DNA of 64,000 nt from Beroe forskalii. Lineage: Eukaryota > Ctenophora > Nuda > Beroida > Beroidae. The DNA is taken from contig WFMF01000028.1 in the NCBI GenBank assembly GCA_011033025.1, positions 620,001 to 684,000 of the forward strand. The letters are read 5' to 3'. The notes beneath the pieces are model-generated. The model saw only the letters and a list, made by a program, of their open reading frames with translations. It was not told where the DNA came from and did not search any database. The position numbers and the translations under genes were made by a program. Below, one piece after another: positions 3,336-40,744 of this stretch; within the stretch, counting starts at the first letter, position 1, and the number at the start of each line of letters is the position of its first letter.

Positions 3336-3845
3336 TCACCGGTTACCCCAAAAGTTAAAAAACCCAGCTAGTTCCTTGAACCCACTTTGGACCTGAGGAT
3401 TAATGCTGGCCAACAAGACTGGGTTACATGCACTCTTCCCAATAAAGAGCCAATGGGCAACCAGGGAGACCTTCACAGGTATGTATATGGGGTGGTTGTA
3501 CACCCAATGCACTAGTCCTGTGATGAAGAGTGGCATGGTGAAGAACATGTAGCACCCCACTATTATAAACACAGATATGGTCACTTTGCGCTGCACCGCA
3601 CTGTTCCGGGAACGCCTGACTTTGCTGCTGGTGCGGTTAGGATTACTGGAGGAGTCATCGCTCTGGTGTTCTGCCTGGATGGATACTCCTCTACTTGCTG
3701 ATGAGATGTGTGCAGGTTTGCCTCTAGAGGACATCACGCCTCCTCCCCGGGGTCCACTGCTCCTGTCAGAAGAAGGAAGACAGGAGGTGGTGGAGGAGGC
3801 TGTGTGGTGGTGGTGGTGGTGGATCCGGGTCATTTGCTGCTGCTC
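3336..3845 (-). CDS. GPCR exon E10: end of ICL3, TM6, TM7, C-tail (single copy)
   Basis: Terminal coding exon, residues 244-412, TGA stop at 3336-3338. The acceptor is a clear polypyrimidine tract ending CTCCAG, directly before a GAG-CAG-CAG start; phase 0 matches E9. It opens with a Gln-rich run, then six histidines (252-257), a Ser/Arg-rich loop and a basic end leading into TM6 (about 330-355). TM6 has P348 in FTMP but lacks the usual Trp two residues before it. TM7 (about 367-390) has NPVLL where most class A receptors have NPxxY. Helix 8 follows as FKELAGFF, and the tail is short. This exon lies outside the tandem duplication, so both cassettes must use it or another downstream exon. Confidence 0.93.
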   Translation of the reverse strand, partial: EQQQMTRIHHHHHHTASSTTSCLPSSDRSSGPRGGGVMSSRGKPAHISSASRGVSIQAEHQSDDSSSNPNRTSSKVRRSRNSAVQRKVTISVFIIVGCYMFFTMPLFITGLVHWVYNHPIYIPVKVSLVAHWLFIGKSACNPVLLASINPQVQSGFKELAGFFNFWGNR

Positions 3846-4158
3846 CTGGAGGAGGGATGGGTTGTTAGCAGAGGATTGAGGGATAGGTTGTCAGCATAGA
3901 ATTGTGCAGAGAATCACTAGAAGTAGAACAAAACTCTGAAGGTAATTGATTGGGACCAACCATTGGCATGTAATTTGCATAGGTATCATTTAGATGATAG
4001 TGTTGTTACACACTACATGCAGGTTTATCTCGTTGAACAAGATAGGTTTGTGTAACAAGAGTGCCATATATAGAATTAACTGATAATTGATTGGGAGTAT
4101 AGGTAATCAAGCAAGTTTTAATAGATGTATCTGTTTAAATTATTGAGGGTTTTGATAC

Positions 4159-4202
4159 CTGTTCTGCTTTGATTGTACTGATCTGCACTGTGCTGGTTGA
4201 TT
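4159..4202 (-). CDS. GPCR exon E9, unit 1 (ICL3)
   Basis: 44-nt micro-exon between acceptor ATCCTCAG and donor CAG|GTATCA. It enters in phase 1 (G from E8 plus AA gives Glu) and leaves in phase 0, as E10 needs. It encodes residues 229-243, a Ser/Thr-rich stretch ending IKAEQ. The sequence is identical to the unit 2 copy. It was found because E8 and E10 do not join in frame without it. Confidence 0.85.
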
Positions 4203-4311
4203 CTGAGGATATGATTATCTTTTAAATGCTGTGCTCAATTTGTTTACTCCATAAGTTCCATAGTTCCATATATCTTTCAGGCAGAAACAAAATCAAGACA
4301 TCAAAACTCAC

Positions 4312-4382
4312 CATTGTTTTCTGAGGGCTGTTTAGGATAGAGATTTGTGAAAGCTGTGTTCTCACTCACATGAACCGTGCTG
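4312..4382 (-). CDS. GPCR exon E8, unit 1 (ICL3)
   Basis: 71 nt between acceptor CTCCAG and strong donor ATG|GTGAGT. It encodes residues 205-229, a hydrophilic loop segment containing NTAFTNLYP. Entry completes an AG-C serine codon from E7; exit leaves one G for E9. Identical to 22296-22366. Confidence 0.85.
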
Positions 4383-4769
4383 CTGGAGTGATAAGATTTT
4401 TCAGCATCATTGAAATTATCGATTAATTTTATTTTTAAGTTAAACAATAAAATTCCGTCCATTTCGTGGATTTGTTAGCCTTGAAGGCTGAATTAGAAGT
4501 AATAAAGAACTTTAATCTATTTATACGAACGGTGGACAGGTGAGGCTGACTGTAGGAAAGGCTGTTCTCTGTTTCTTGATCATCGAATTCAGCTTTTTCC
4601 TATTGGGGAATCGGCTGGATCAAAGGTAAATGAGCACTGATCAGAGTTGTGTCCACGAAAATAAAACATACTTTTGTTACAGTAGAAATATTGACAGATT
4701 TAGGTTTTAATGTGATTTTGAAGAGGTAGATATTGACTGAAGTGCAGTTCGAGTTTCCCAGCAGCATAC

Positions 4770-4859
4770 CTGGTGATGATAAGGAGTTTGAAGTAGAAGT
4801 AGGCACATAGGAACATAGGAACTGGTATTGCCAGCATGAAGAACGTTAAGAAGTAATAC
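4770..4859 (-). CDS. GPCR exon E7, unit 1 (TM5)
   Basis: 90 nt, acceptor CCTCTCCCAG, donor CAG|GTATGC. It encodes residues 175-205 and nearly all of TM5, with P187 (5.50) and Y195 (5.58) eight residues apart as in the family. Identical in sequence to the unit 2 exon; only the donor differs (GTATGC here, GTTAGC there). Read after the shifted unit 1 E6, this exon gives a stop within five codons. Confidence 0.92.
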
Positions 4860-5128
4860 CTGGGAGAGGTTATGTGGTTAATATGATTGGAAAGAGCAGC
4901 TATTTAGAGCTCCTAGAATTGATATAGCTACTTTGACAAAGCAATTTAACTTCTCAACTATAGATTTGATTTTGCAGTGCACTCTCATTTAAAACGGGAG
5001 TAAGCAGTTAAAAGCACTAAGTTCTATTAATGTAAATTTACGTCTAGAAGAGAAATTAAAGCTTCTCCAATGAAATTTTCGATGCCTCACGAAATGATAT
5101 AAGCTTTCTATTGTAAGGACACATTTTA

Positions 5129-5507
5129 GTGGCCCTAGAATTAGAATTAGAATTAGAATTAGAATTAGAATTAGAATTAGAATTAGAATTAGAATTAGAA
5201 TTAGAATTAGAATTAGAATTAGAATTAGAATTAGAATTAGAATTAGAATTAGAATTAGAATTAGAATTAGAATTAGAATTAGAATTAGAATTAGAATTAG
5301 AATTAGGATTAAATTAGAGTTAGAATTAGAATTAGAATTAGAATTAAATTAGAATTATTAAATTAAATTAGAATTAGAATTAAATTAGAATTAAATTAGA
5401 ATTAGAATTAGAATTAGAATTAGAATTAAGAATTAGAATTAGGATTAGAATTAGAATTAGAATTAAATTAGAATTAGAATTAGAATTAGAATTAGAATTA
5501 GAATTAC
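5129..5507. repeat. (TTAGAA)n microsatellite, unit 1
   Basis: Pure hexamer array to about 5305, then an interrupted array (TTAAAT, AGGATT variants) up to the E6 donor. The Leu-Glu and Ser-Asn ORFs across it are translation artefacts. Confidence 0.97.
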
Positions 5508-5658
5508 TTGTGGAATGCTTCCTTTTCCCTCGAATCCGCAGTTGAAGGAGTACTGCGAGTATGTATTTATCCCACCCAAGGAGGGGGCAGGCTGCCAGGA
5601 GGGAGGAATGGAACCAGCTGAAGAAGAGCATCAGCAGGATCCTCCTGTGAGACATCAC
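5508..5658 (-). pseudogene. GPCR exon E6, unit 1 (TM4/ECL2), frameshifted
   Basis: Same exon as 26851-27005, but 151 instead of 155 nt. TM4 reads normally (W138, P148) through GWDKY. Then a 2-bp deletion shifts the frame before the ECL2 cysteine, and a second 2-bp deletion lies near the 3' end. The net loss of 4 nt makes the standard join to E7 hit TAA almost at once. Acceptor (CTGCAG|GTG) and donor (CAA|GTAATT) are still present. A weak internal donor after CCCCTCCTTGG would rejoin E7 in frame but delete ECL2. Alternatives are sequencing error next to the adjoining microsatellite, or recent loss. Confidence 0.85.
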
Positions 5659-5685
5659 CTGCAGAATAATAATTAGTGTTACAAC

Positions 5686-5835
5686 CACTGCCAGAGTGGC
5701 ATACTATCACTACATCACCTGCAGACAGTTAGTGTTACTGCCAGACTGCCAGAGTGGCATAATATCACTGCCAGAGTGGCATAATACTGCCAGAGTGGCA
5801 TAATATCACTGCCAGAGTGGCATAATACCACTATA
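5686..5835. repeat. Minisatellite of TGCCAGAGTGGCA palindromes
   Basis: About six copies of a unit near 23 bp built on the 13-bp palindrome TGCCAGAGTGGCA, in the intron between E5 and E6 of unit 1. Absent from unit 2. Confidence 0.85.
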
Positions 5836-5936
5836 GTGACATGTTGGGGAAGTATATGGAAATGGAAATGAGAGTTCTCCAAGCAGTTATACCCCACAGT
5901 GCAAACACTGACCCAGCACCCCAACCCTAACCCTAC

Positions 5937-6044
5937 CTTTTCGTAGGAGAAGGGGTGAGTAACGAAGTAGTATCTGTCTACGGAAGACATTGCCATGGTC
6001 CACAAGGAGGAGACAAGGGCCGCGTTGTCAAGGAAACCAGACAT
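5937..6044 (-). CDS. GPCR exon E5, unit 1 (TM3, DRY motif)
   Basis: 108 nt, phase 0 at both ends, acceptor CCACCTCAG, donor AAG|GTAGGG. Residues 88-123: the body of TM3, the D110-R111-Y112 G-protein coupling motif and ICL2 ending HPFSYEK. One synonymous difference from unit 2. The donor runs straight into GTAGGGTTAGGGTTGGGG, a G-rich stretch not found at the unit 2 donor. Confidence 0.93.
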
Positions 6045-6263
6045 CTGAGGTGGGGTTTTGTATAGAATTTGTTTATTTGGGGAGAAATAGAAATACAAAT
6101 AACGTCAAATTATCTTATGTAGGTAGTGTCGGGAGATAAATGGAAGATTTTATCTGAACGTTTTAATAGGGTTGTTTAACTGCAAAGCTGCAATTGCCAA
6201 GCTGCCAATAATACAAGACAGAAAAAAGTCCCTCTTTAAATGACAGGTAACGTCCTATATTAC

Positions 6264-6337
6264 CTCACAGACACTTTCCCCAAATACCCATCTGTTCTGC
6301 AGCACAGAAACAGACGTGATAGGCATCGTCATCACTC
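6264..6337 (-). CDS. GPCR exon E4, unit 1 (ECL1)
   Basis: 74-nt exon, acceptor CCTTTTCAG, donor GAG|GTAATA. Residues 63-87 cover the end of TM2, ECL1 with RWVFGES, and C86, the disulphide cysteine at 3.25 (24 residues before D110, as expected). Four synonymous differences from unit 2, no replacement. Confidence 0.9.
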
Positions 6338-6509
6338 CTGAAAAGGCATTTTATCATGATACATTCCAACTAGATTCCAACTACATTCCAACTACATATT
6401 CGTATATTATTTCACTGGGAGAATTTGAAAATTCTCGAAATTTCTACAAATTCTTGTAGTTCTACTGCCTAAAAATGAAATGTTCCTCAAGGAGTTCCTC
6501 CCTACAGAC

Positions 6510-6611
6510 CCACGAGGAAGTCCGCCACGAGGAGGTTGTTGATGAAGATGTTGTTCCGGCTCTTGATCTTCCAACCGTGGGCTGTCACACTGGCTATAAC
6601 CAGCACCGAAC
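6510..6611 (-). CDS. GPCR exon E3, unit 1 (TM1 end, ICL1, TM2)
   Basis: 102 nt, acceptor TCTGTCAG, donor GTGG|GTCTGT. Residues 29-63: end of TM1 (GSVLVIASV), ICL1 rich in Lys/Arg/Asn, and TM2 with D59 in LLVADFLVG. The first position of the family motif GN has Ser (S30) in place of Asn. Three synonymous differences from unit 2. A longer open frame across this exon is a shadow. Confidence 0.93.
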
Positions 6612-6858
6612 CTGACAGAGGTATGTTTGTTTGTAAGAAGGCCTAGTATAAAAGTAGAGACGCATAGGACGAAGTTGTAAAAATTGAACTGCCCATAAAT
6701 TTCGGAAGAAAAGAGCCATCTGCTATTGATAAACTTTTTTGGAATTCTCTTAAGGTCTTCAAAGTGTGCAATATTATCAAGTTTCATGAAAATCGGACAA
6801 TTTAAAGTGCATAAAATAAGTGTTTAAAAATCGTTGGAAATCCTATGTGTCTCTAGCA

Positions 6859-6960
6859 TAAGGGGTCATTCATAAATAACGATCACACTTTTTCACATTG
6901 AAACCCCTTTCGGATTTCCCCCGTAATAGGCGCTTAGAATTTACGGATGGCCCCTAATTT
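6859..6960. mobile_element. Small MITE, ends AGGGGTCAT / ATGGCCCCT, unit 1
   Basis: About 100 bp with inverted ends AGGGGTCATYCATAAAT and ACGGATGGCCCCT. Also present at 28987-29093, so it predates the duplication. Confidence 0.6.
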
Positions 6961-7281
6961 AGTTGAAACAATTAATGAATTATAAAACAAATTTGTTGTC
7001 GATACAGGGTCTGTTTCACGAAGTTTTAAAATGAGAACTATTTTGTCAGTCAACAAAATATGAAAGTTTCAACATTCAATTTCTTTCTATGTATGTTTGT
7101 CGGTTGTTTGCATAAAGAGGATTTCGTAAAGTGGATTGCATAAAGAGGATTGCACTTATGTCAATTGATAGTGGGTTAATGCTTCATGCCGGTAAAATTA
7201 CCATATCCATCGCCGTGACAATTAAAACGGCAGTAGTTAGTTCTCAAGCCCACTGAATCGAATATAAGTAGAGTGACTTAC

Positions 7282-7368
7282 CTAGAATAGTGACGATGGA
7301 GAAGAGGACCATGACAGCCCCAAGAAGCTGTCTGTCGAATACTGTCAAGATATTATCTTCAGTCATTG
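7282..7368 (-). CDS. GPCR exon E2, unit 1 (start codon, TM1)
   Basis: The start ATG is at 7366-7364 and the donor is CTAG|GTAAGT. 28 codons plus one base: a short acidic N-terminus (MTEDN) and the first part of TM1. The acceptor ATATGCAG lies two bases before the ATG and is preceded by several CTAAC branch-point matches. No signal peptide is seen. Three synonymous differences from unit 2. Upstream exons could extend the protein only if they supply a different phase. Confidence 0.88.
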
Positions 7369-8979
7369 CTGCATATAAAGGTTAGGTTAGCTGCAAGGTT
7401 AGGTTAGTTGCAAGCTATTATGTAAAAACATGGTTGAAAAAAATACGGTCAATATGCTCTGTAGTGTGTGACGATTGTGTTGCCTTCATTTATTATAGCT
7501 AAATTTCATTGGGGAAAGATTGGATCTAATTTTCAAAAACCACAACCAGCCAACCACGCAGTTGAAGCGAAATGAGTTCAATCCAATGCAATATAAGCAA
7601 AATGCAGCCCTCAATAATAGAATAACGTCTGCAATCATCATGGGAGGGCTGCACTCACTCTGCAGCACTATATTATGGAATATGTTAGGGTGGGGATTTC
7701 AAACTATCATGTAAATAGAGGGGGCTGTCAAATTAACCGATTGGGCCTGGATTTTAGATGCAACAAATAATCTATTCAAATGGTTAATGATTTTTTAGAA
7801 GGAATTAAAATTATACTGATAACGGCCTTTGATAAAGCGTTTCAGATCCTGTCCGAACTAACTTCACAGTATCCGATTCAGTGGGTTAGGTGCTTTAACC
7901 CATTAGTGCCCAACGTAGCCTAAAAGCAACAGTTACGTTTTGAGTAATTGTGGCTTCTCTGAATGAGATATTAATTTCGTTTTTTCAACAACACCAGCTC
8001 TATTAAATTTCACACACTTCCCTGATCTCGAAATATATCTTTTGGCATCAGGCAACCAGTTAATTGACCAATTAATTTGACCATTTATTTTTTGATAGGA
8101 TTTTCTACCACCTTCAGTAATTGGGTTAATTGAGGTAGCTAAACCAGATTTTTGATTTTATTGCTGCATACACCTAAATGGTCATTGGACGTGGCATTCA
8201 GATGGTCAAAGAATGAACTCATTAGTCCAAACCAGTCAGGAGATATAAGCATTCAAAGTTCCGATTGCCTTTAGGCAACACTGGGGCTGTTGTAGTCAGG
8301 GACGAAATGGAATCCCGTGCTTTTTTCGTGTTAATGGACAGTTAGGAGAGGTTCTAGGTATTTTAGGCTATGCTGAATCGATCTAGCTATGCCGACATTT
8401 TTATTTCGATGACGTCACCTAGTTTGGCCACGCCCATTTTTGCCCCTGTATGCGCCATAGGATCCGAAAAATTTTTATTTGCCTTGAAATGGTGTATCAT
8501 ACATCGAAATAGGGGTTTTTCGACACGAGAAACACGATGCAATCCTCAGATTTGGCTCAAAATGTTCACAGAGAGGTCTAGGGTGACCACACCCCTTTTA
8601 GACACACACATGAGCCCAAAATTACAAACTTCCATTTACTGATACCCAATACCCATGGCATGTGATATGTCAAAATAGGGGTTTTCGACACGAGAAACGC
8701 GATGCAATGCTAAAGAATGGACCAAAGAGGTTCTGAACGATTAATAAGAAGTGACTACACCATTTTTTAGGCTCATGCGAGACACCAGAATGCCAAGTTT
8801 GTACATTTACACTGATACCCATGACACGAGAAAACGATTCTCTATTCAGTTTCAGCCTAAAAGTAAAATACCAGAAGGTGAAATATTGACAATCTACTAC
8901 TGGGCCCAGGTGGCGCCCAAGAGGAAGACCGAGACGAGGAATGAGCATTCCCTTTTTTTTATTTCGAAGGTTTTACGTC

Positions 8980-9290
8980 TATTCCAAAAGCCATTACGGC
9001 TAATGACAAGAATCGAAAGATTCAAAGTTTAATCAAGCCAGTGTAATCCATACTTTCATCGCCCGAGACTTCGCTGCAATGGGCAGCTCCTCATTTAACC
9101 CTCCCGCACAGTGTCTGTGCTCCGCTGAGTGAACCGTTGTGCCACATATAATAGGCTCAAGATGAATCTCTCACCCTTAGCTCATTGGTGCTGGCCGGGA
9201 TTTCGAACCGAGGATCTTTCAATCCTGTTATACAATTCGATACCACTACACCACTGACCCAGCTGTGGCCCCGGTGGAAGGACCGTTTTT
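8980..9290 (-). mobile_element. tRNA-derived SINE
   Basis: On the minus strand a tRNA-like head carries an A box (TGGTGTAGTGGTATC, 9253-9239) and a B box (GGTTCGAAATCC, about 9209-9198, one base longer than the tRNA consensus). It is followed by a body that recurs at 59331-59520. Nested in element A. Confidence 0.7.
9190..9262 (-). other. tRNA-like head, not a functional tRNA
   Basis: A and B boxes are correctly ordered, but the T arm has an extra base and the acceptor stem does not pair cleanly. Best read as the internal pol III promoter of the SINE. Confidence 0.6.
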
Positions 9291-12200
9291 CCCAGTTGCC
9301 ACCCTGCTGGGCAGGATGGTGTTGTCAGCCAACAGTGGGGTCAGGCCCCTTTTTCTTCTATGACCGGAGCGAGGGCTACCTCTCTGCAACATCCTCTAGG
9401 GACAGCTTAACTGTTACCTGATACCCCAAGACACTTGTACCGAGGGATAGAATCTTTAGTGGTTGCACTTGAGGTCGTCACCAGCTCTCTTAGACACTTT
9501 TAGGCAACCAGTCCTATATTGGTATAGCTAACAAAACCTGTTAAGTTTTGAATCTGTCCACGATGTCGGTGTTTGCACATCACAATTGACAAACTTTGGA
9601 TTTCCAATTTTGAGAAAATTCCTGTATTTCTTGTTCCATTTGTTGCCCTGCAGCATTTCATACCTCTTACGGGAATCGCTTCATATGAACTTATGGTTTC
9701 AAGGCCGAGGTATATTCTGCTGCCTTCTCCTCATCTTTGCTCTCATTTCTCTCCTGGGTTCCCCTGCCCCTCACCTCAGGCTGTCCCAACAAATGGTTTT
9801 AATAATTAATTTTGCTGACACGTAGGTCGGTTCAGTTGTCAAGTCGAAGGCACCAAAATGAGCGCAGATGCCGCTTTTTCCATTTTTGACGAGGTCAATA
9901 TTCCTGAACACTTCTACTACAGATCATGATGAAACATGACGTGATACCATCAATAGTGTTCTGTTACATAGTTTCTGACTTTTCTGATGTTCTGGGGATG
10001 AAGAAGAGAATTCAAAGCGACGATAATCATGATTCAAGCTCCTGATTTAAATTGTCGTATCATTTTAAACGTTTTCTTGCTCTAAAAATTGGTTCGTTGT
10101 CTCAAGAATCTTAGAATGCTTCTGAAAGTCACTATTTTCACTATAATCAAAATGATCATCAGGATGCAATTTCGGGAGCTATTAAAAAACAACACAGAGT
10201 TGTGTGTCCGGCTTAAAGTATTTGTGTGTGCTCTCATGTTTTATATTATAATGTCTTTTATAAGCAATCAGGTAGCATTGACCTTCACTGACATGAGCAA
10301 CCACTGTGATAATAAGGATGGAGAGCTTGTTTTTTGAATCGTCTGGGGCCAAGAGCATGGTAGCTCGGCCTGGCTCTCTTGGAGAGCGCCATACAGGATC
10401 TGGGGATCAGTAGTTCTACAAATAATTTCAATATTTCACGTTCTTCTTGTCTTTTGCTCTGACGATTGAAGGCTTGTATTTACTAAAGGCTGAAGTCGTG
10501 TTTCTCATGTCATAGATTGTCGGTAAATATAGCTTAAAACTTGGCATTCTGTCTCACATAGACGCAAAAATGGGGTGTCATTCACTTCTAGTCAGTTCTG
10601 TGTTCTTTTTGGTAAAATCAGCATTGCTGCGTTTCTCATTAGAAAACACTATTTTAGTATTTTGACATAACATGCATACTATCGAACATCAGAGAGGAAA
10701 TAGATTTTCAGGTCATATTTGGAACTGGATGGTTAAGGGGTGGCAATCACTTTTATCCCTATGAACCTCTTTGGATCATTCTCTTCGCGTTCTCTCGTGC
10801 CAGAAAACCACTACCTATTTAGTATTTTGACATAGCGCATGCTATGGGTATCAGAAATGGAATTTTCGAGTCATATTTGGTGGATGGTCCCAAAAGGGTG
10901 TAATCACTTTTAAGTGTCCTATGAACCTCTTTAATTCCATTCTTAGCATTGCATCGCGTTTCTCACGTGCCCATAAAACCAGTGCTTTCTTTTGACATAT
11001 CACACATGCTATGGGTAATAAGGAAATGGAATTTTTCAGTCATATTACCAGGACTCGGACCAGGTCCCAAAGGGTGTGATCACTTTTAAGTCATTCTGAA
11101 CCTCACTTTGGTCATTCTTAGCATTGCATCGGTTTTCGTGATGAAAACCCCCTGTCTTCAAACTATATCACATGCCATAGGTATCATTAAATGGGAAGTT
11201 TGAAATTTTGGGCTCAGCGTGTGTCTAAAAAGAGGTGTGGTCACCTCTAGACCTTTCAGTGAACAGCCCCAGGCCGAATCTGAGGGATTGCATCGTGTTT
11301 CTCGTGTCGAAGAACCCTATTTCGTGCGCAATCCCCGCCATTTCAGGGCAAAGCAAAAACTTTTCGATCTGGCATGCCGCATGCAGAATAAAAAATGGGC
11401 CAAAGCTAAGTGACGTCATCGAAATAAAAAATCCGGCATAGCTAGATCGATTCAGCATAACTAAAATACCTAGAACCACTCCTAACTGTCCATTAACACG
11501 AAAAAGCACTGGGACTTCTATATTGGTAATTGAATGCTTGACTGTGCCCAAAAAGCAAGCAGATTCTAGGGCTAGAAACCTCCAAAGAATCATGTTTATC
11601 TGACCGTTTTGCATCGTCTGAGTGCTTTATAATTGAGCCAAATTGCAAATTCATAAAGCAGAAGAACGTTATAGCAACATTTGCTAAGTGTTGCTCTTAG
11701 ACGCTTACTAGGAGGGCTTCGAAAATTTGCCAAAATAGCGAAATTAACGGCTTTTTAACAAAAGGCTGATACTATATAATAGAAATCTGTACCATGCTGC
11801 ACGTTCAGAAGGCTAAAATATATAAAAATTGTTGCTTTGTTGCCTCTGGGCAACACCAGGACACCATTATATTGTGAGGGCATGACACCTACCACACGCC
11901 AATTTAAATAAACATAATTGTTCTTTCTGATATAAATGTTTAGAATTGTTCGTTCAGCAATGTTAAAATAAACTATATCTGTTGCCTCTAGGCAACACTA
12001 GAGGACCTGCGTTGTATTTTGGGTCGTTCAGAACCTGACCAGAGTCCTTAATTTTCAACGGAACCAACGGTAATTAAAAACATTATAAAATATATTTAAT
12101 TATGATTGGCATGTACTGTAATAATTGTTGCTATTGGTGTTAAAAGGTCTGTACAATAGGCAAGTAAAATTAAAACTCCCTATAGATGGTGCAATACTCT

Positions 12201-14272
12201 TCACAGCCCTGAACGTACAGATTATGAGTAGTAACAGTGTGGGTTTTCATTGGATCAGGTGAGAGATCTAGCAATGGCAGAAAAACTGACAAAAAAATAC
12301 CATCAAGTGGGTTCCTGCATTTGCATGTCCTGTAAGTCTATAAACAACCTTCACTCATTTCTACACATTACGTCTATTCAGCTTTCACTTTTCAGACTTC
12401 AGGGACATTGCATACCTAATCACAAATTACTGAAATGACGAAAGTCTCCTTATAAAATGCCTAACTGTGGCCATATTGTTGAGCCTATCTGTGTCTGTAA
12501 AACATCCAGTTGCAACTTTCAAGGGGCAATCCATAACTTAAGCACAACGGAAACTTAACGAATATTCATTATTCACCTGTGTATAATTACTATTGGCTAT
12601 ACAGTATACCTACGAGGTGCCTATAAATCCACGATCCTTTTCACAATCATCTAACCATTCTTTTTAAGGAAAATGTAAACTCTGAAGGTCAGTCAGAGCC
12701 ATTTTGCAAAGCTCGAGTTATGTAAATAGAGTGCGCTTCAATGCTTCAATGGGGTAACGGTCATGTCAAGGCAGAAATCAGAAAATGTGGCGTATCCAGT
12801 AACTCATGCAGTAAGGGACATAATTCTATGTTAACTAAAGTCCATTTGAATAATAATAATTATTACGATCCAGTTTTCTAATAGACCCCCCAATGGCCTT
12901 ATCTATGAAGATTATCTGTCTTTTTCAATCTACAGCCAGGGGTCAGTGCAAAGAAGGTCCTGCCAATGCATAAAATTCCAACATGCAGTTTTATAGAAAT
13001 GTATTTTTGGAGCAAAATTTATCATGTTGAATCCTGGTGTTGCCTAGAAGCAACAATAATCTTTGAAATTTTATGCCAGACTTCACATCTATAGAAGTAT
13101 AGACATCTAGCACACCAAATAAGGCAAGAAAATAACCATTCTCGTAGTTGGTAGTTGAAAAATATTGTCGCATGATGCTATGTAAAATCCAGGCATAGTG
13201 TTGCCTAAAAGCAACAGCATTTATGGAAATCATCCCATATTTAATGATTATATATGTTTAAAAGGCATATTGTTTCCGTCCACACGTGATATGAATGTCC
13301 AAGAACGTGGAAATAAATAGTTAAATGTCATTCTCCCCAGTGTTGCCTGTGGGCAACAGTACGTTTTTGAGGCTTTGGGTTCCCGTGAGTATTGCATATG
13401 ATTTCCATTTCCATCTGTGGCTACTTGCTCAGTAGAATAAACCATAAATTCACTTTTTAGATACCAAATATTGAGAGATAAAGTAATGTTTCCCAAGGCA
13501 ACAGCCCAGTGTTGCCCGAAAGCAACAGGTTCATAACTCGAAAAACTACTGAAGTACCAGTATTGGGATTTTAAACTTAGTCATTGTGGCCCAGTGTGGT
13601 TCGGAAAATAAACATGTTATATAAAATACTCTGCCAGTTTTTCCTTGGGCACTAATGGGTTAAGAGCGTTAATTTTACCTTGAAAATGGAATCGTCCCCC
13701 CCCCCATTAGGAACTATCGAGTACTATGCTCAAATAGCCCCACCTGACTATAAATACATCTGACTCCTGGGTGCGCTGTATGTTAAATGGGCACCACTCT
13801 ACACTAGCTTGATTGCAATACTCTAATAGTCTAGTACTTACCTACCTAAGTTCATTGTACTTATTTGAGCCATGTATGTTCTATGGTAACCAATCTTTGT
13901 CAATCTTGTAACATTTGTATGGATGCATGAAATACAAGATAGTCCAACAATACCCATAACTTCAATCAGACAAGCGTATCACAGAATACTAAGACAGTTT
14001 CTGAGTTAAGCAGGTAAAGTAAACTAGGAAAACTAGGAGAGAACAGCTGGAGATTACAACAAAACTTAATTTTTGCCATGCTAGAATGATATCTCAGGAT
14101 TATGATTCGTCTAGACATCGCTCTTAACGTGACATGATCGCGACAAACTGCAGGATCGGTTAAACTCCTTATTATAAGCGCACATACATACATACATACA
14201 TACAAAGCCCTTATTATCTTATTATGATTCCAGAAATAACAGTCCTCATGATTGCTCGACATTATTACTCAC

Positions 14273-14558: not shown

Positions 14559-14584
14559 GAGAAGAGCTGTCGGGAGTCTCCCGA

Positions 14585-26577: not shown

Positions 26578-26598
26578 TGACTATAGGTGTAGTTATAG

Positions 26599-29421: not shown

Positions 29422-29508
29422 CTAGAATAGTGACGATGGAGAAGAGTACCATGACAGCCCCAAGTAGCTGTCTGTCGAATACTGTCAAGATATTATCTTC
29501 TGTCATTG
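29422..29508 (-). CDS. GPCR exon E2, unit 2 (start codon, TM1)
   Basis: Intact copy of 7282-7368: ATG at 29506, donor CTAG|GTGAGT, acceptor ATATGCAG two bases before the ATG. Same 28 residues plus one base as unit 1, with three synonymous changes. Confidence 0.9.
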
Positions 29509-30208
29509 CTGCATATAAAGGATAGGTTAGCTGCAGGGTTAGGTTAGTTGCAAGCTATTAACATGACCGAAAAAACTACTATAAATATGCTCTATAGTGT
29601 GTGCCGATTGTGATGACAGCATTCATTATAGCTAAATTTCATGGGGAAAGATTGGATCTAATTTTCAAAAACCACAACCAGCCAACCACGCAGTTGCAGC
29701 GAAATGAGTTCAATCCAATGCAATATAAGCAAAATGCAGCTCTCAATAATAGAATAATGTATGCAATCATGATGGGAGGGCTGCACTACTCTGCAGCGCT
29801 AATACAGGGGGAGTAAGCGTGTTAGGGTGGGGATTTCAACTCTCATGCAAATAGGGGGGGGGCTGTCAGATAAACCGATCGGGCCTGGATTTTAGATGCA
29901 ACAAATAATCTTTTCAAATGGTTATTAATTTTTTAGAAGGAATTAAAATTATACTGATATCAGCCTTTGATAAAGCGTTTCAGATCCTGTCCGAACCAAC
30001 TTCACAGTATCCGCTTCAGTGGGTTATGTGCTTTAAGAGCGTTACTTTAACCTTGAAAATAGAACCCCCCCCCCCTCATTAGGAACTATCGAGTACTATA
30101 ATACTCAAATAACCACACCTGACTATAAATACAACTGACTATTGGGTGTGCTGTATGTTAAATGGGCACCACTCTACGCGACCTTGATTACTATATTGCA
30201 ATACTCCA

Positions 30209-30618
30209 TTATGCACCTTCCAAGCGTGTTTATGCTATGTCTTCAAAAACCCTATAGGCACCAGCGTACCGTGTGCAATAAATTATTGCGCACTGTAGTG
30301 CCGATATCTGAATTTATTACGCACTGTAGGTCATAATAATTTATTATGGTGCAGTAGAACAGTGCGTAACAATTTATTTCACACAGTTGAGCAAACAGTA
30401 CCTTCAAATCTTGATTTAAAAATTTCCTTTGTGTTTGAAAATATTGTCATTTTTCGAGTATCATGTGCATGATTCAGTTTAATAACTCGTAAAGTTAAAC
30501 TCAGCATTAAAAAACTTCGGCCTTCGGCCCGGTTTTTCAATATTATATACACTCGGCCTTCGGCCCTCGTGTGTAATATTACGTTTAGTAACTTTTACTC
30601 GTTACTAAACCCTTCAAT
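30209..30618. mobile_element. 410-bp element, copy 2
   Basis: Uninterrupted copy; unit 1 has the empty site ATACTCTAATAGTCTAG at about 13820. No target duplication. Confidence 0.85.
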
Positions 30619-31232
30619 AGTCTAGTACCTACTTACCTACCTAATACTCCAATAGTACCTACTTACCTACCTAAGTTCATTGTACTGATTTGAACCATAC
30701 TATGTTCTATGATCACCATCAAGCTATAGTCAATCTTGTAACATTTGTATTGACGATGAAATAGAGAAACAACGTTTAATAGAGAAACAACGTTTAATAA
30801 ATTTTTCGGCACTTTACAATCAAATCATATCAAATATATTATAAATATTAATGATAGGCTACCCTTCAGTGTAAAGATTTGTTTACACTGATACATGATA
30901 GTCCAGCAATACCCATAACTTCAATCAGACAAGCGTATCACAGAACACTAAGACAGTTTCTGCGTTAAGCAGGTACTGGTAAATAAACTAGGAGAGAACA
31001 GCTGGAGATTACCATAAAACTTAATTTTTGCCATGCTAGAATGCCATGCTAGAATGCTATCTCAGGATGATGATTCGTCTAGACATCGCTCTTAACGTGA
31101 CATGATCGCGACAAACTGCAGGATCGGTTAAGCTCCTTATTATAAGCGCACATACATACATACATACATACAAAGCCCTTATTATGATTCCAGAAATAAC
31201 GGTCCTCATGATTGCTCGACATTATAACTCAC

Positions 31233-31512
31233 CGTATTGATAATCTCCAATCTCCTAGGCATACTCAAATCTTATCGGAACATTTTAAGTAGATTTGATT
31301 TAACCTACATTTAATGAAGCAGAATAGTAGCTAAAGGAGATGGTTAGTAGAAGTGCTCACTTTTTGAGGAATAACGAAAACGCATTATTTGACTATTGAG
31401 GTTTATTATTAAACGAGAAAAACCATCATGATTTAAGCTTTTTAAATTTTTAAGACAACCCTCAAAGTTAGAAAGTTGTTGAAAGTATTTTGACGAATGG
31501 AAAAGGTCTGTG
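31233..31512 (-). other. Probable 5' UTR exon E1, unit 2
   Basis: Counterpart of 14273-14558 with the same donor ACG|GTGAGT and the same 10-codon upstream frame ending at it. The 5' end is inferred from the TATA-like box at about 31540. Confidence 0.5.
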
Positions 31513-31539
31513 AGAAGAGAGGTCGGGAGTCTCCCGAGG

Positions 31540-31845
31540 GATTATATTTAGGTGCAGCTGGAGAGCCAATCAGAGCACTGGGTCTAAGTCACGTGACTAT
31601 CACGTGATTAATTCTCTGATGAATAGCTAACCGGTTACATAGTCTCTTTCACCATGTTTTCTCATTATCTTATTAACTTTTTCCTTATATAATGTCGACG
31701 CATGTGGCGGTTACGATGAATGAGAACTCCCTTCACATTCTCTAGCAATAAATCAGCAAACCAGTGACGTCAGCTCCCTTCTTTTAGTTGGGAGTTGGTG
31801 ACGTCACTAGTGTTCTTTAGGTTGGGAGTCAGTGACGGGCATCGG
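31540..31845 (-). promoter_or_regulatory. Candidate GPCR promoter, unit 2
   Basis: Near-identical to 14585-14890: TGACG motifs at 31765, 31799 and 31833 (34-bp period), two CACGTG boxes, a CCAAT box at 31566-31570 and a TATA-like box at 31540-31551. It is about 2 kb from E2; in unit 1 the distance is 7.2 kb because of element A. Confidence 0.5.
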
Positions 31846-32227
31846 AGCTTGTTCTGTTCGTACCAGATACCCACAAAAAGTTATTAAGCGGGCTATGAAA
31901 AGCCTTATCTAATTTGTAGACTCGTTCTAACGAGAAGCACTTCCTCACTTCATTACATTTCCTGCAATATTACTTCTTGGGAGGCAAGACATGTTTAAAA
32001 TCAGGGCTTCTAGAGTCGCACAAGTCCACAATACCAAATAATATGAGCTACACCTATGCTGAATTCATCTGCTGAAGCCACCTCTGGGTACGAGACAAAA
32101 GTTTTAGATTGTATGACCATTGATGATTGACCATAAGCTGCCTAGAAAAACAGATGCGTTTTTCTTCATGAATGAGTCCTAGAACCTTTGACTGCATGCA
32201 TATAAATAGAGCTTACGTGTATTAATA

Positions 32228-32580
32228 CAAGGGTCCATCCATAAAGGATGTCCGCAAGGAGGGGGGAGGGGGAGGGGTGTTTTGCCAAATGCGGACGTCC
32301 GCATTTATGAAAATTTTTGCGATTTGACTGGTTTTTCACTAGGAAATAGTCGATTTTTTAGAATTTTGACTAAGATTTTCGACATTGAGTCATATAATGA
32401 AGTTTATTTTGTCACCATATTTGAGAAAACGGGCATAAAAATGATGACAAAAGATTTTGAATAAAAATGCGGACATCTGGAGGGGGAAGGGGTATTTCAG
32501 GTTGCGGACGTTTGCGGACAAGGGGGGAGGAGGGGTCTAAAATAGCCGAAATTTTGCGGACGTCATTAATGGATGGCCCC
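32228..32580. mobile_element. GGACGTCCGC MITE, unit 2
   Basis: Counterpart of 15268-15575, slightly longer. Confidence 0.7.
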
Positions 32581-33367
32581 AAAACAACCGGCAAGATCGT
32601 AGTTCCTACACCATTCCAGGTCATGGAATACAGAAAAAGAAATGGGGCAGTACAAGTGATGGGCATTTTGAATCGAATCCATCTATAACCTCGGATCAGA
32701 TTCGATTAACAAACCGTTTGCAGTCACCACAATTGTCGGAGGAAAATCATTTCGCCTTTAGCGCTTTATGCTGGGGTAATACCTTAATATATACCGACTA
32801 AAATATTTGAGGTTAAGGTAGTTTAATCATTATGTCGGGAGATGTAATTTAGTTCGCCAACTAAAATGACGTCTATCACATCAGGAGCGTTTGGGAGTGC
32901 CAAGTGACACCAAGCTACTCCAAGCTGTGGAAAATGTGATGGCCAGGGGCCAGCATGAATCTTAGAATCATGATGCATATTACTCTGCATAATATGCAGA
33001 TTAGTAATCATAATGTAGTATGTAGATAGAAATACGTTCTTAAAACTTTAATAAATACGTTGTGTGGATCCCTTGTTTTATTTAAGCAGATTAGTAATCA
33101 TACTAAAACTTTAGTAAACATGTTAATACGTTGTGTGGATCCCTTGCTTTATCGGTCTGTTCCAGCTGTAGAGGGCCTCGCACAGCTCGGGGGTTATCAG
33201 CAGAATGCAGATAACAGCTACTGATAACGGCTGCTGATAACGGCTGAGCGAGGAAGTTTAAACTTCCCCTCTAGGGCGTGGCTCATTCTTTGGTAGCATG
33301 TGTCTGCTAATTTTGTGATTGATTTGAAATCTACGGACGACGTCTTTGATAAACTGGTTGCTTATTA

Positions 33368-36300
33368 GTAAGGGATGTATCTGCCCCAGGCTGTAACCCC
33401 CCGTGAACTAAATCCTCCCAAAGATGTAAGAACGGAATTTGCAGTCAATAGGCCCAAGAACCACCAAAAAGTTGCCCAAGAAAAATCCTTGGGGACCTTT
33501 GATTTTTACCCCTTTTTACCCATTTATAGGGTAAACTTTAAGAGGCCATATCTCTGCTTCCCTTTTGAGATAGAGAGGTCAACGACCAGTCTAAAAATGT
33601 GCGCAATGAATACATTTTGGTTGGGCGGAATATGTTTGAAGTCGTTATCTCGAACTGTTTTCGAGATTAATCTCAAAACCCCTTTTTCGCTGCTAAAGGG
33701 GTAAAAAGTGGTACTGCTAAATTTGGCTCTCACTGCAGGCAAATTGGGCTTTGGCTTTGTACTGTAGAAACGTTTCTGAGTCGTATATAGTCTAAAAGTT
33801 GCACCGAAAAAAAGTTGCCCAAGATATTCCATATAAGGAACCCCATTTTTACCCCTTTTTCGTACCCTGGCGTAAGCGAAAATTTGAAATTGATATCTCC
33901 GCTTCCTTTTGAGAGGTCAACGACCAGTCTAAAATGAGCGCAATGGTCATATTTAGTGTCAGTTTCAGTTGTTATCTTTAAATTGATAATTTCAAACCCC
34001 TTTTTCGCTAAGCGCAAAGGGGTAAAAAGTGGTGAAACAATTATGCTGCAGGTAAATTGACCATTTTTCATGATTGGAGACACATTGAGTCGCATATAGT
34101 CTTAAAAGAAAATTCAAGAAAAGTTGCCATATATTCATAGGAACCTCCATTTTAAACTTTTTTCATACTCCTGCATGAGCGAAAATTAGAAATCTCAGCA
34201 AATTTTAATACTTTCGTTGTACTATTTGTAGAAAAATTTTAAAAAAAAACCGAAGCCTTGATTCGTAAACAAAGCCATAGATTATTATCATTTAATGTAA
34301 TCAGCAAAGGTAATGATAGTTGCTTCTGTTTATACTGTAGATGTTTGAATAAACACAGTGTTTCTAATCGTAATTCTCATACAGACAGCAAAAGAGAATG
34401 CCAATAAAAACGATCAAAGATTTGCCAACGAGGGCCTAAACTTAAAAGATGTGAGTTTTCATTGGCATTGCTTCTTTTTATCAGTTGCGCCTCATTGACT
34501 GTCATCCTCATATAGTCATTCTCTAGTGAGTGGTTGGCATGGTATATCCAACCTTAATTATATCGTTTCCCTTGTCTGAGTTCGGAAAAATCTCTTGCTT
34601 TAAAGGCCTACATTTTTCAAGGTGGGTAGAGTGTCTTATGATACCAGCTGGGGGATTGCCCTTCTACTTCAATTCGAGACAAACCAGACCAGGCTATAAA
34701 GACAGATCCATTGTGAGCAAACTTCCACCGATGCCAAGTTATGTTGACAGAAAATACTTGATGATTGCTAGTGCCATGGTGTGTAGAATAGGGATTTCTT
34801 CGTCAATTTAATCAGAAATAAGGACAGTAGAGTGGTTATGAACATCTTCAACAATAAAACGCCGTGTTTTGTGGATATTTCACCGAATATATCATTCATC
34901 ATAGTCATACATTCTGAGAAGTTAATTGGTTAGAACATAACGGACACTTTTTGACATATTCATATCACTACGCTCTTATCTTAACTAAATCTATAAATAA
35001 TTGAATTAAATTAATTTATTAGAAAAATGCTGAATATATTATAAATGACAATCTATGTCTGCTATTATGTGAAATACAATATACATTATACAAGATACAC
35101 AGCAGTGGCATGTCAAGGCACAGCTTTTACAGTACACAGTGCCATCATCGTAAATTTGACAGCTGCTTGCAATGTGACAATGCCATTGTACACAGGCAAT
35201 TTGTCTGAAACCTACAAAATGCATTTTGTATTCTGTCTAGTTGAGCATAGAACCTCTGAAAATGCAAAGACACTGTCTGGTCCATATTTGGTTTGGGCCC
35301 TCTGCCTGACAAGGCTGTCAGATGTCCCCTCGGGAAGGCATGTAAATGGACTGACAGGTGCTGTGTTTATTTATTTATAAAGGTTGTGGATCAAGCGAAA
35401 AATGGAACAATGTGTGTTTCTAAGTGTTCCAGGATCGTTTTCATTTCTAAACAACGATAATTACACAATTCTAATAAACAGACAAGCAAGATATGCATTT
35501 CTTGCGAACAGCTAACATATAAGTAAAAAGACTAACCTGAGAAAGAAATAAAAGTGAAAACTTCTTAAAGAACGCTGTCTTCGTGTTCGAGACAAAAGTT
35601 CCAACTTTTCGCATTCTTTGGATTAAATCACGAGTGCAATTCCATCTGATTGTCCCGGAATTGGGACACTGACAGTCTAGACAGAATATTTGCAGAAAAT
35701 AGGTCTATGATATTGAACTCACACTTGAAAGTTATAGATAAATACTGTCAAGGCTTTTTTCCGAATCACTGAGCTCGTGAAGAATGGCTCGTTTTCTTCT
35801 GCCCGCACCTACAGGTCAACAATTTTATTACGAAGATCAGCAAAAGCAGCAAAATTTGACAGTTATAGGTTTTTGTTGAATTTGTATTTCACAAACAAAT
35901 AATGGATTTTTTGTGACTAGTCTTGAATTACCCAAATTAACAATAACTGGGGCAAGTCAACGAGGATTAATTGATATTGGGTACAGGATTGGCCACCATT
36001 AATACTGTTCAATAATTTGACGTTGATCATAGATTGACAACCCACGATGGTTTATGCCATTATTGAAACCATTTCTAAATTTAAAAGCCTTGATAAGACC
36101 ATTTTTATTTCACTAATTAGGGATGATGGAAAATCTAGCTGACTCCATAGAATTGACGAAAAATGGAATTTTGAGCAATTATCTTCAATGCCGATGGAAA
36201 AAGCGGCCTCAAACTATGCTCTACCCCACCAAATATATGCTCATTCAACATATCCTAGATTTATTGCTGACCTTTGTATCGCCAAAGGAAGCCGAGATAT

Positions 36301-37061
36301 CCACATTTCTAATTTTCGCTCATGCAGGGGTATGAAAAAGGGGTTAAAATGGAGGTACCCTATGGAATATCATGGGCAACTTTTTCTTGGTGCAACTTTA
36401 GACTGTAAACGACTCAGAAATGTGTCTCCAATCATGAAAATGGTCAATTTACCTGCAACATAGAGCCAAATTTAGCAGTATACTGTTTTACCCTTTGCGC
36501 TTAGCGAAAAGGGTTTTTGGGGATTATCTCGAAAACGGTTTGAGATTACGACTTCAAACCTTGATCTGCCCCACTAAATATGACCATTGCGCTCATTTTA
36601 GACTGGTCGTTGACCTCTCTATCTCAAAAGGAAGCAGAGATATGGCCTCTTAAAGTTTTACCCTACGTGTGGGTAAAAAAGGGGTAAAAAATCAAGGTTC
36701 CCCAAGGATTTTCTTGGGCAACTTTTTTTTGGTGATTTAATCAGAAATAGGACGAGTAGAGTGGTTACGAACATCTTCAATTGTAACAATTAAAACGTCG
36801 TGTTCTTGTGATATTTCAATGAATATATCATTCATCATAGTCATACATTCTGAGAAGTTTATTGGTTAGAACATACAACTGACACGCAACATATTCATAT
36901 CACTAAGCTCTTATCTTAGCTAAATCTATAAATAATTGAATTAAATTAATTTATTGGAAATTAATTTTTTTTGGTGGTTCTTGGGCCTATGGACTACCGA
37001 ATTCCGTTCTAACATCTTTGGGAGGATTTAGTTCACGGGGGGTTATGGATCAATCCCTTAC
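33368..37061. mobile_element. Long-TIR DNA element, TA-flanked
   Basis: 3694 bp, flanked by TA, ends GTAAGGGAT with inverted identity running over 100 bp (CCCCCCGTGAACTAAATCC and on). Sub-terminal units with GTCAACGACCAGTCTAAAA recur in both arms. A repeat of about 220 bp occurs twice in direct orientation (34806-35025, 36735-36960); the second copy interrupts the right TIR. No transposase was recognised. Absent from unit 1. Confidence 0.8.
34806..36960. repeat. Pair of direct repeats of about 220 bp
   Basis: 34806-35025 and 36735-36960, both starting TTTAATCAGAAATA and ending AATTAAATTAATTTATT. Not LTRs: no TG...CA ends, primer site or gag-pol between them. Confidence 0.75.
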
Positions 37062-38754
37062 TATATTGCTTTATTGCGTAACCGAAAATGGTAAACACTA
37101 AACCTGCTGTGTCAGCTTAACTCTTTTCCAATAAATATTTCTTTGTCTGTTTGCCGTCTGTATTATAACAAAGTCACGTGAATTATTTGTCGGGATAACA
37201 TTGTCTAGCATTATCAGCTCATTTTTTGGAAGAGAAACACTTTATCCATTTGTGTTTTTGGTGATCAATATGATGATTTGATCAATTCCGAATTTTGTGG
37301 ATCCTAAGTTACAATTGTAGAGCAGTAATATTTAAGACTAACCAATTTTCGACAACTTTAGCACATATTCTCTGTGCCCTACAGAGATAATTGAAATATA
37401 CTGCAATATCCGAGGTTTCAAGTACTCATGAGGGTTCTTGATTAAGACACCCAGTGAGCCCTAAAGCGCACCTCAAACAAGGGATACATGTTTATTGAAT
37501 TATCAAATTCCAAATTTTAGGGCAAACCATTGTGTTGCAGTAATTGGGGAACATTAAATCGAGACAAACCAGCAATGAAATTTTACAATAATCACTGCCT
37601 CAGATTTTATCTGGCCTCGTGAACGGGTCATGCATTATCTTGACATTATCATAATTCTCGATAATAATGTAGGTACTTGGTTGTTTTGCTACTTCGCAAT
37701 TTATAATTTCCATTGATAATTATTGTTTATTGATGTAAGCATTGATTTTTTGTCTCGACGAATTTGAAATCTCTGCTCTCAGTCAAGAGTTTTTGCTCTG
37801 CAAATGCTATTTCCAACCCTTATTCTTTAACCACTTTACCCAACTGGGATATTTGCTATGTGCCGGATTTTCACTTGGACTATATTAGGGAAATTAACTT
37901 CTTGATGCTTGCATTAAACTGCTTAGTGTTTATTGAGTTAAGGGAGCACGACCTTCGTTGGACGTCCCCCTCACCCTTGAAGGGTTTGCACCACGTACCA
38001 AATGTGATGACAGACATCATTTCACCGTGGTGAACCATTGCAACAGCCGTTAAATTGTCATTAAACCATTGCAACAGCCATTAAATTGTCATTAAACCAT
38101 GTGAGATCTATTGCGGAGTAAATGCAGAGGTTCAAGGTTTAAGGACGTAGGGGGAGATAGTGCTCGGCCAAGTGTGGATGTCCACAGATTATGGAAATTT
38201 TGGTCGACTGAACGGGTATTTCACAAGGAAATCGTGAAATTTCGAGCCCAAAAATGATGACCCAAAAAATATGCAATTAAAAATTCAAACGTAGAATTTA
38301 TTATTTCAGTAGCTTTCCATGCATAAGTTTTTTCAATCTTTTTCTTCTGATTTTAGCGATGGTTTTCATCCATGCTCCAGTAAATTTATTGCAGTCACAC
38401 AATTCCACACGTTTCTCAAATAGGTATGACTCAGTCTGGAGTTACAGTAGAATGTCCTATCATAGGACCAGTTCATCACCACAAGTCATGAGTAATTGTA
38501 GTTGCACCTATTTAATTATTTTATCCAACTCGTTAGCCAAAGATATAAAAGTGATCGGTATATCTTGACTTGTCAAATAAATTAAATGTAATTTAATTCA
38601 GTCTTTGGGTGGCACATCTGAGGGTTTGGTCCCAATAGGTCGTTTCTTGCAAAATAAAAAGTGACTTGTGTTTCCTAACACAAATTTAGATTGATAATGA
38701 AATTATGGTTCATTACTTTACTGAAAACCAATTTGTCATTGGCAAAGTTACGCT

Positions 38755-39935
38755 GGTGAGCATTTGTTATTTTGTTTTTGTGCATTAATCGCTCACAATA
38801 TGTCGCCTTGAAAGCTACAGTTTTATCGGTTGACTGATTGTTGCACCGGTTGAGTGACAACTACTCAACCATATTGATATTTTGTTTCAGAGCTCCATAC
38901 CTTGATTTCTTATTTTCATCTCGGCTCATCGAGTAGAAATAATTTTTTAGTGTTATTCTACTGATTGGTCATGGTTTTGGGGAAAACTTGTAATTTGTAA
39001 TTTCAAGTCTACAAATTTGATACTTTTACTTTGATACTTTGATACTGGGTGGAGCAGGAGCCGGGGACAGGGGGTTTTTTCCCCGGCTTAATTTATGGAG
39101 CCGGGGAAAAGTATCCTTTTTCCCCGGCTCAAATTTGACAAAATTTTCAACCTTCTTATATAAAATCGCAAATTGTGACCAGCTTTGAGCCTTTACTTTT
39201 CAAGTTACACTTTCTGGCCAATCTATAATTGTGTAAAATTTGCTTTTGTTATTTCAAGGCTACTTTACCTTGACCAAATAGGATTATGACCATCATTAAC
39301 CGATACAAACTAGATTCGGTGTGGTTACACGACTTTTCATTTGATAGGCGGTTTTACCAATCGGTAATTCAGTGCAATAACACAATATTATGATGTCACT
39401 TCCATATGCCTATCATTTTTGATATGCTGCAACATGAGAACATGTAGATATTGGTCCGACCTGATTGCTTTAGGAAAACAAAACAACCTTGGGACTGGGA
39501 GTGGAAGCTAATGTTTCATACAACTGTTACTGTTTGTCTTTTGGGATCAAAATGTTGTTGGACTGCTATAATTAAATTACCATAATTCAATTAGCGTTAA
39601 TTTTCGAGGGAAAAATTCCCCGGCTCAAAAATCAACATTGCTCCACCGTTGAGCATTTGTTATTTTGTTTTTGTGCATTAATTGCTCACAATATGTCGCC
39701 TTAAAAGCTAGAGTTTTATCGGTTGACTGATTGTTGCACCGGTTGAGTGACAACTACTCAACCATATTGATATTTTGTTTCAGAGCTCCATACCTTGATT
39801 TCTTATTTTCATCTCGGCTCATCGAGTAGAAATAATTTTTTAGTGTTATTCTACTGATTGGTCATGGTTTTGGGGAAAACTTGTAATTTGTAATTTCAAG
39901 TCTACAAATTTGATACTTTTACTTTGATACTTTAT
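38755..39935. repeat. Flanking direct duplication of about 285 bp
   Basis: Host sequence beginning TGAGCATTTGTTATTTTG and ending ACTTTGATACTTT stands on both sides of the 600-bp element. Unit 1 has it once. Confidence 0.85.
39048..39647. mobile_element. CCGG-rich 600-bp element
   Basis: Inverted ends GGTGGAGCA / TGCTCCACC, with repeated CCCCGGCT near both ends. Absent from unit 1 (about 21180). Flanked by the direct repeat 38755-39046 / 39648-39935. Confidence 0.75.
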
Positions 39936-40744
39936 CGTTTTTAACTTTTGCCCTCATCTGTTTGTATATTGATAGTATTTCACATAAATTTCCATGCCTG
40001 CTTGAAGTACTTAAATACTCACCTAACCTATTAAGTTACATGACTTTTTAATCTTCAAAGGGAAATATCGGCCCCAAAACTCAAAGTTTTTAAGAAAACA
40101 GCCTTTTCTCAGTATAAGGTACTCAAAAGAGATGGTAATTTGATAAAATCAAATTAAGAAAATCATAGGCTCCGCCCGCTTACAAACGACTTTACGTAAT
40201 ATTATGTTATGCTCACATCTTGAATAGTGTAGGTACCTTCCTTTTTGCGATGCATTCCGCTCTTTTAATCTTTTTATATAGGCTCTTTTATAGGGATATT
40301 TCCTTAATTTACCATTGTTCTACGATACGCTGGAGGAAATTTGCTATTTTCGTCTTAATCTATTTGTGCTGCTTCTGTCGGTTCTCCCCCACTATCTGGA
40401 GTTTATTTCATGGTCTTTCGTTTCATAGACCTAAAACTTTACGGACATTAATATTCATGCTTAATTGTCCTGCCAATTCAAATTTTGGACAAAAATTCGA
40501 AATTTTTGGCTCGATATCTTCCACGATTTGAATAAGATTTTTCATATTTTTTCTAATGATTAATTCCTTTATTGCAGTTACTAAGCATGAGAAGGAAATT
40601 TCCTGAAAAATTTCGTTAAAGAGATGAAGTCAGAAAATTTGCGTCTGGATCTCAGAAATTTTAAGAGGAAATAGGTACAGGACATGATTTTCACGGGTAT
40701 TAATATTCACGCCGAGGAGCTTTGAGTGACTGTAAAGAGTAATG

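Follow-up and report, generated by a model that had tools for sequence, protein, structure and literature searches.

At the UGT1A and clustered protocadherin loci, several promoters and variable heads are joined to constant 3' exons. A related plan is found among the insect Or and Gr receptors, which are seven-pass proteins of a superfamily unrelated to the class A G-protein-coupled receptors (GPCRs). In the published accounts of Or/Gr loci, long N-terminal exons stand in tandem and are joined by splicing to C-terminal exons which they have in common; for some of the cockroach heads this is backed by RNA, and some heads are pseudogenic (PMC3011837, PMC6175461). By these accounts, the principle of many heads and one tail is already known (PMC3011837, PMC6175461). 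In this work a locus of the ctenophore Beroe forskalii was analyzed, in which two heads of a predicted class A GPCR gene precede one single terminal coding exon, termed E10. The window, i.e., the whole stretch of DNA under analysis, comprises 64,000 nucleotides (G000:C336:620001-684000) of an assembly of 216 Mb in 1134 contigs, and all positions given without a contig name refer to it. We tentatively interpret the locus, with somewhat less than even confidence, as a real partial tandem duplication of a ctenophore class A GPCR gene, in which the far head would be spliced to E10.

A preliminary description of this DNA had likened the locus to variable-head/constant-tail loci, and the insect Or/Gr genes provide close precedents for this likeness (PMC3011837, PMC6175461). 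As described for Gr39a, Gr28b and the cockroach Or/Gr genes, tandem heads which hold most of the protein are combined with one shared C-terminal end (PMC3011837, PMC6175461). Provided that the order of the assembly is right, tandem heads and one C-terminal exon set, the hallmarks of a shared-tail locus, are both present. In a locus of the Gr39a type each head should be able to join the tail in frame; here this holds for the far head, with a product of 435 amino acids, but not for the near head if the conserved splice sites are used. Moreover, each Or/Gr head consists of one long exon, whereas the present locus has two near-identical predicted heads of nine exons each. The UGT1A and protocadherin loci differ from it by single first exons, many diverged heads and tested splicing. 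A possible vertebrate analogue is GPR161. No direct precedent for a last exon shared through a partial tandem duplication was found among the papers listed, which were open-licence papers of PubMed Central. New, if real, would be a receptor of class A whose two heads, each of nine exons, derive from one partial tandem duplication.

Self-comparison of the window, in which alignments of hexamer arrays were not counted, revealed two tandem units in the same orientation with 10 collinear blocks of about 80-95% identity. For the long blocks E = 0 was obtained, and the two-unit pattern is far beyond chance. The collinear blocks of both units are interrupted by unit-specific insertions. Unit 1 (4011..21981, minus strand) is the near head cassette and unit 2 (21984..40744, minus strand) the far head cassette. 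At the seam the end of unit 1 is followed by two filler bases, AC (21982..21983), and directly by the start of unit 2, so that the sequence is contiguous and the unit ends do not overlap; N bases are absent from the 64-kb window as well as from the 264 kb around and including it. The gene is located on the minus strand. Nine coding exons for the transmembrane segments TM1-TM5 and the third intracellular loop (ICL3) are present in both units, as the preliminary description had proposed, and E10 (3336..3845, minus strand) is found at the left end only. This exon encodes the end of ICL3, TM6, TM7 and the C-terminal tail up to the stop codon TGA (3336-3338), has the acceptor CCTCCAG followed by GAG and is open over 169 codons. 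The claim that the TM6-TM7 exon exists once was borne out, since E10 DNA (query 3330-3900) matches the whole assembly a single time, at its own locus, and no second E10 is found elsewhere. A hidden TM6-TM7 exon between the heads was rejected, as a tblastn search of the 264 kb with the C-terminus of a related Bolinopsis protein (see below) returned only E10 above noise; residues 306-408 of that protein match E10 at 67%. In an assembly DNA search crowded by dispersed repeats, a third head was not found among the best 40 of 976 candidates, and the heads found thus number at least two.

The left edge of the duplication falls within the last intron, as described previously, with unit 1 reaching down to 4011 and E10 up to 3845. 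This edge cuts a dispersed repeat of about 130 bp (3955..4085; many matches in the assembly, most of them starting at 3955), which is about full length beside E10 and shortened at the seam. The junction between unit 1 and E10 is therefore the original one. A second dispersed repeat of about 330 bp (40406..40735) extends to within 9 bp of the right edge of unit 2, and its unit 1 copy is located near 21641-21972.

All head exons lie on the minus strand, and the first one was measured from the ATG, which is found two bases after CAG. In the order of the coding sequence, unit 1 comprises the exons TM1 (7282..7368, start codon at 7366 and acceptor two bases ahead of it; 3 synonymous differences to unit 2), TM1/TM2 (6510..6611; 3 synonymous differences, donor set to fit the Bolinopsis protein), TM2b with the first extracellular loop, ECL1 (6264..6337; 4 synonymous differences), TM3 with the DRY motif (5937..6044; 1 synonymous difference) and TM4 with the second extracellular loop, ECL2 (5508..5658), which is frameshifted and has 151 bases vs. 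155 in unit 2. These are followed by the exons TM5 (4770..4859; 90/90 bases identical to unit 2, 90% identity to Bolinopsis), I3a (4531..4599; 69/69 identical), I3b (4312..4382; 71/71 identical) and I3c (4159..4202; 44/44 identical). The corresponding exons of unit 2 are TM1 (29422..29508, start codon at 29506), TM1/TM2 (28640..28741), TM2b (27678..27751), TM3 (27385..27492), TM4/ECL2 (26851..27005, open and with the ECL2 cysteine kept), TM5 (22751..22840), I3a (22511..22579), I3b (22296..22366) and I3c (22145..22188), the donor of which would join E10. GT donors are present in 18/18 exon copies and AG acceptors in 16/16 copies of exons 2-9, and the last intron is in phase 0 in both units.

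The far head joined to E10 encodes 435 amino acids without an internal stop. The translation reaches 139.6 bits with Pfam 7tm_1 (cut-off 30.5), whereby residues 31-410 cover positions 3-259 of the 260 in the profile, and judged by this profile the receptor is a class A (rhodopsin-like) GPCR. The closest solved chains by sequence are amine receptors, with 5-HT1A in first place. Among about 5.8 billion proteins (3973 candidates) the sole match at E <= 0.001 was a "rhodopsin-like" protein of 412 amino acids from the ctenophore Bolinopsis microptera, which aligns end to end with 65% identity. Its support for the gene model is clear over TM1 to TM5, over I3a and over that part of E10 which encodes TM6 and TM7, and weak over I3b and I3c as well as over the initial third of E10. 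Class A receptors are characterized by D2.50, the DRY motif, W4.50, P5.50 and a cysteine in ECL2, as well as by CWxP in TM6 and NPxxY in TM7. The far-head translation contains VADF, DRY, FFSW, IPVP and NC and thereby all of the first five elements, of which the near head lacks the one in ECL2 owing to its frameshift. TM6 and TM7 deviate, with CYMFFTMP in place of CWxP and NPVLL in place of NPxxY. Many class A receptors vary at these two motifs, and the deviation appears to weaken the closeness to amine receptors rather than the class membership. An assignment as opsin was rejected: the opsin Schiff-base lysine occupies position 7.43, and the TM7 lysine found here, four residues before the asparagine of NP, corresponds to 7.45.

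The TM4 exon of the near head has lost two bases twice within about 40 bases, adjoining an array of the hexamer TAGAAT. Such arrays start at the TM4 donor in both units, with 62 copies in unit 1 (5136-5506) and 42 copies in unit 2 (26596-26849). The match to the Bolinopsis protein falls into two frames at this exon. To assess alternative donors, seven GT sites within about 600 bases were tested. With the conserved site, the near head joined to E10 runs into a stop after 177 amino acids, and four others likewise lead to stops. Two inner donors (after 44 and 83 bases), which are present in both units, keep the near frame open and give 398 or 411 amino acids, but the product then lacks either part of TM4 or the cysteine-bearing stretch of ECL2; we consider it unlikely that a working receptor would result. 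The two losses may have arisen by mutation, or they may be base errors beside the array. Owing to the frameshift, the far head alone has an open frame into and through E10 if the conserved splice sites are used. The preliminary description, in which the TM4 losses were overlooked, had proposed that both heads can feed E10, which agrees with the open far head but not with the near head as sequenced.

Over the 154 codons before the frameshift the two heads differ in 11 codons, all of them synonymously (11 synonymous, 0 nonsynonymous), and the four exons behind the frameshift, 274 bases, are identical. Three further substitutions in the frameshifted remainder of the TM4 exon were left unclassed, which brings the exons overall to 14 substitutions in 794 aligned bases (1.8%). 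The head of 266 codons has 175 synonymous and 623 nonsynonymous sites, and free drift of one copy should have left about 20 nonsynonymous changes. Taken alone, the ratio of 11:0 indicates that both heads were under selection. Outside the exons, substitution amounts to 8.5% in the gene introns (193/2268) and 4.2% upstream (215/5179); the lowest value, 2.2%, was obtained for the outermost block and the highest, 13.8%, for a single segment. The nine non-exonic segments, two short ones of which belong to neither of the pooled figures, are heterogeneous (chi-square p about 1e-21). Excluded from this test, though counted in the overall total, was the segment 5507-5735 (26/56), which aligns poorly. 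The dispersed repeat at the right edge, which is not likely constrained, differs between the units at only 4 of 320 aligned positions, vs. 193/2268 in the gene introns (Fisher p about 1e-7). Such uneven divergence is not explained by one event with clock-like change thereafter, and gene conversion or side-by-side alleles do fit. Of the previously claimed origin from a single breakpoint, one tandem duplication can be retained, and the divergence of 2.2%-13.8% demands conversion or an allelic origin in addition.

If the duplication is real, a break in the last intron would have been fused to a site which lies 11-15 kb ahead of the first coding exon, with the order far head, near head and single tail as the outcome. 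Transcription would start from the far head, and its last ICL3 exon would be spliced across the near cassette onto E10, phase 0 to phase 0. The intron to be removed would measure 18,299 bp, in line with the figure of about 18 kb given in the preliminary description, compared with 313 bp for the last intron of the near head. As sequenced, a full receptor with a complete ECL2 would be obtainable via the far head only. In case the near TM4 losses are a local base error, both heads could feed E10, and they would share the same residues over the 154 codons before the frameshift and over the four identical later exons. The two units, the single E10, the splice sites and phases, the open frame of the far head with E10 and the near frameshift are seen in the sequence, whereas a correct order of the assembly, transcription of the far head and the skipping of the near exons are inferred. 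That the locus is fixed, with the only intact receptor produced by an 18.3-kb splice over nine competing duplicate exons and the near set kept as a regulator (decoy or second head), we regard as doubtful.

Genes within introns are familiar from another ctenophore, Hormiphora californensis, for which many nested intronic genes parallel to the host gene are described (PMC8527503). The present arrangement would resemble these insofar as a same-strand gene inside the intron of another is skipped in splicing, and would differ insofar as the nested genes of Hormiphora are independent and lie within one intron, whereas the nested set considered here would share the last exon of its host (PMC8527503). 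In the same account, a trans-spliced leader is reported on 56% of the Iso-Seq reads (PMC8527503). The position of the TM1 acceptor, only two bases ahead of the ATG, would be suitable for such a leader. A pattern of 18 bases, composed of part of the Hormiphora leader plus GT, gave 0 exact matches, which rules out this exact stretch only, and known RNA families gave 0 matches in the window at gathering score. The promoter and the exon of the 5' untranslated region, which were said to have been copied as well, could not be confirmed as such: only upstream blocks similar between the units were found. One stretch of 420 bp upstream of the coding exons (14569-14988 and 31522-31940) is nearly identical between the units and could contain an untranslated exon or a control element.

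Several observations weigh against the interpretation proposed here and against the use of both heads. The donors of the TM2 and I3a exons are weak in both units, with 5/9 consensus positions. The near head is frameshifted, and as sequenced the use of both heads fails unless an inner TM4 donor is used. Furthermore, the first coding acceptor met downstream of the far head belongs to the near TM1 exon, so that the far head must bypass a ready decoy closer than E10; a splice to this acceptor leads to a stop after 267 amino acids, directly past the junction. Reading of the far head into its own intron ends after 331 amino acids. A far head which is transcribed and ends without E10 by one of these two routes would yield a truncated five-pass receptor, and both are the short-range outcomes. 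Nevertheless, we consider this very improbable. Against it stands the identity of the exons I3a-I3c between the units (184/184 bases), as these exons would serve little purpose in a receptor that lacks TM6-TM7. Finally, the 11:0 pattern and the uneven divergence are equally expected from two alleles, and with an allelic origin the count would reflect selection on alleles and not the use of two heads.

The latter point leads to an assembly artefact, in which two alleles of one ordinary gene were laid end to end, each chromosome carrying one head and one tail without any skipping. We consider this only slightly less probable than the interpretation proposed here. The exon differences before the frameshift are allele-like in being exclusively synonymous, the introns differ more and contain large indels, and divergence varies from 2 to 14% along the unit in patches, as between recombining alleles. 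Strong heterozygosity and retained haplotypes are described for other ctenophores (PMC8527503, PMC11184263, PMC11797021). For H. californensis a heterozygosity of about 2% for single bases and 3.2% with indels is given, with many noncoding indels and a noncoding value which the authors hold to be underestimated (PMC8527503). The nearly doubled size of PacBio assemblies of Beroe ovata is attributed to haplotigs (PMC11184263), and 127/129 unplaced scaffolds of the Mnemiopsis leidyi assembly are taken as alternative haplotypes (PMC11797021). However, the intron substitution of about 8.5% is well above the Hormiphora figure. The seam displays neither gap nor overlap, and an overlap assembler cannot easily produce such a seam; since it lacks overlap and N and has a 2-base filler, as in real breakpoints, a real duplication is favored. 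The dispersed repeat cut at the seam, being about full length beside E10, likewise speaks for a real duplication. Among plus-strand matches of at least 400 bases within the 264 kb, no further pair of adjacent units many kb in length was seen. For E10, for the heads and for the flanks 39650-41250 and 42100-46000, no separate allelic copy was detected among the best-scored assembly matches, the left flank before 3330 lying outside this search, and apart from dispersed repeats the searched flank stretches are single copy; a purged assembly would lack such leftovers anyway. A further alternative is a young real duplication by exchange between diverged haplotypes, which we regard as unlikely. Here the divergence of the heads would predate the event and thus say nothing on the use of both; one of the heads may have no function, and the duplication may be polymorphic in copy number. 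The low divergence of the right-edge repeat (4/320) compared with the introns (193/2268), the lack of nonsynonymous changes, which fits purifying selection on alleles before the event, and the frameshift already present in the near head are consistent with a young exchange, but a patchy divergence would likewise be expected if tandem copies of old age had undergone gene conversion.

The allele-like character becomes apparent in comparison with two other tandem pairs of class A GPCR genes, two of several neighboring look-alikes from a family search. These are located at C523:50001-52500 / 60001-62500 and C443:120001-125800 and consist of single open frames of 411 and 354 amino acids, respectively. 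Their differing codons comprise 13 nonsynonymous and 49 synonymous ones at C523, and 29 nonsynonymous and 19 synonymous ones at C443. Both look like ordinary paralogs, whereas the pair described here, with 0 nonsynonymous vs. 11 synonymous codons, is more allele-like. On the same contig as the window, C336:694902-697410 / 711574-716157 was considered as a second tandem pair and rejected, as its members lie about 14 kb apart and are not adjacent. They are 87-96% identical, with a 44-bp array expanded in one copy. Contig C336 also contains satellite arrays and a 610-bp pair at 717362 and 721282.

Further repeats were observed in and around unit 2. An insertion specific to unit 2 in the TM4-TM5 intron (22977-26596) has inverted arms of 94% identity (23001-23723 and 25816-26547), each of which holds tandem repeats of about 170 bp, and its inner stretch has open frames; related copies are found at C336:554543-555415 and C336:557448-558196. 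About 30 bp past the TM2 donor of unit 2 lies a dispersed element (28252-28611), which is absent from the same site in unit 1. It has many copies across the assembly, most among the matches listed being 92-98% identical, and is also found at 52312-52671 and, more diverged, at 30258-30618. A direct repeat of 284 bp with 98.9% identity (38757-39040 and 39650-39933) flanks about 610 bp in unit 2; at the corresponding site unit 1 has a single copy and lacks the insert of about 610 bp. Just beyond the right edge of unit 2 a tandem array of 47 bp follows (41254-42053).

If the locus is real and used in the way proposed, it would show, in an animal lineage that branched off early, how a many-head/one-tail gene looks near its beginning, with two nearly identical multi-exon heads, one breakpoint and one tail, and it would offer a built-in test of splicing choice between a last intron of 313 bp and one of 18.3 kb. 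Should the units instead be an allele pair laid end to end, the locus would serve as a warning on tandem half-gene duplications in very heterozygous genomes.

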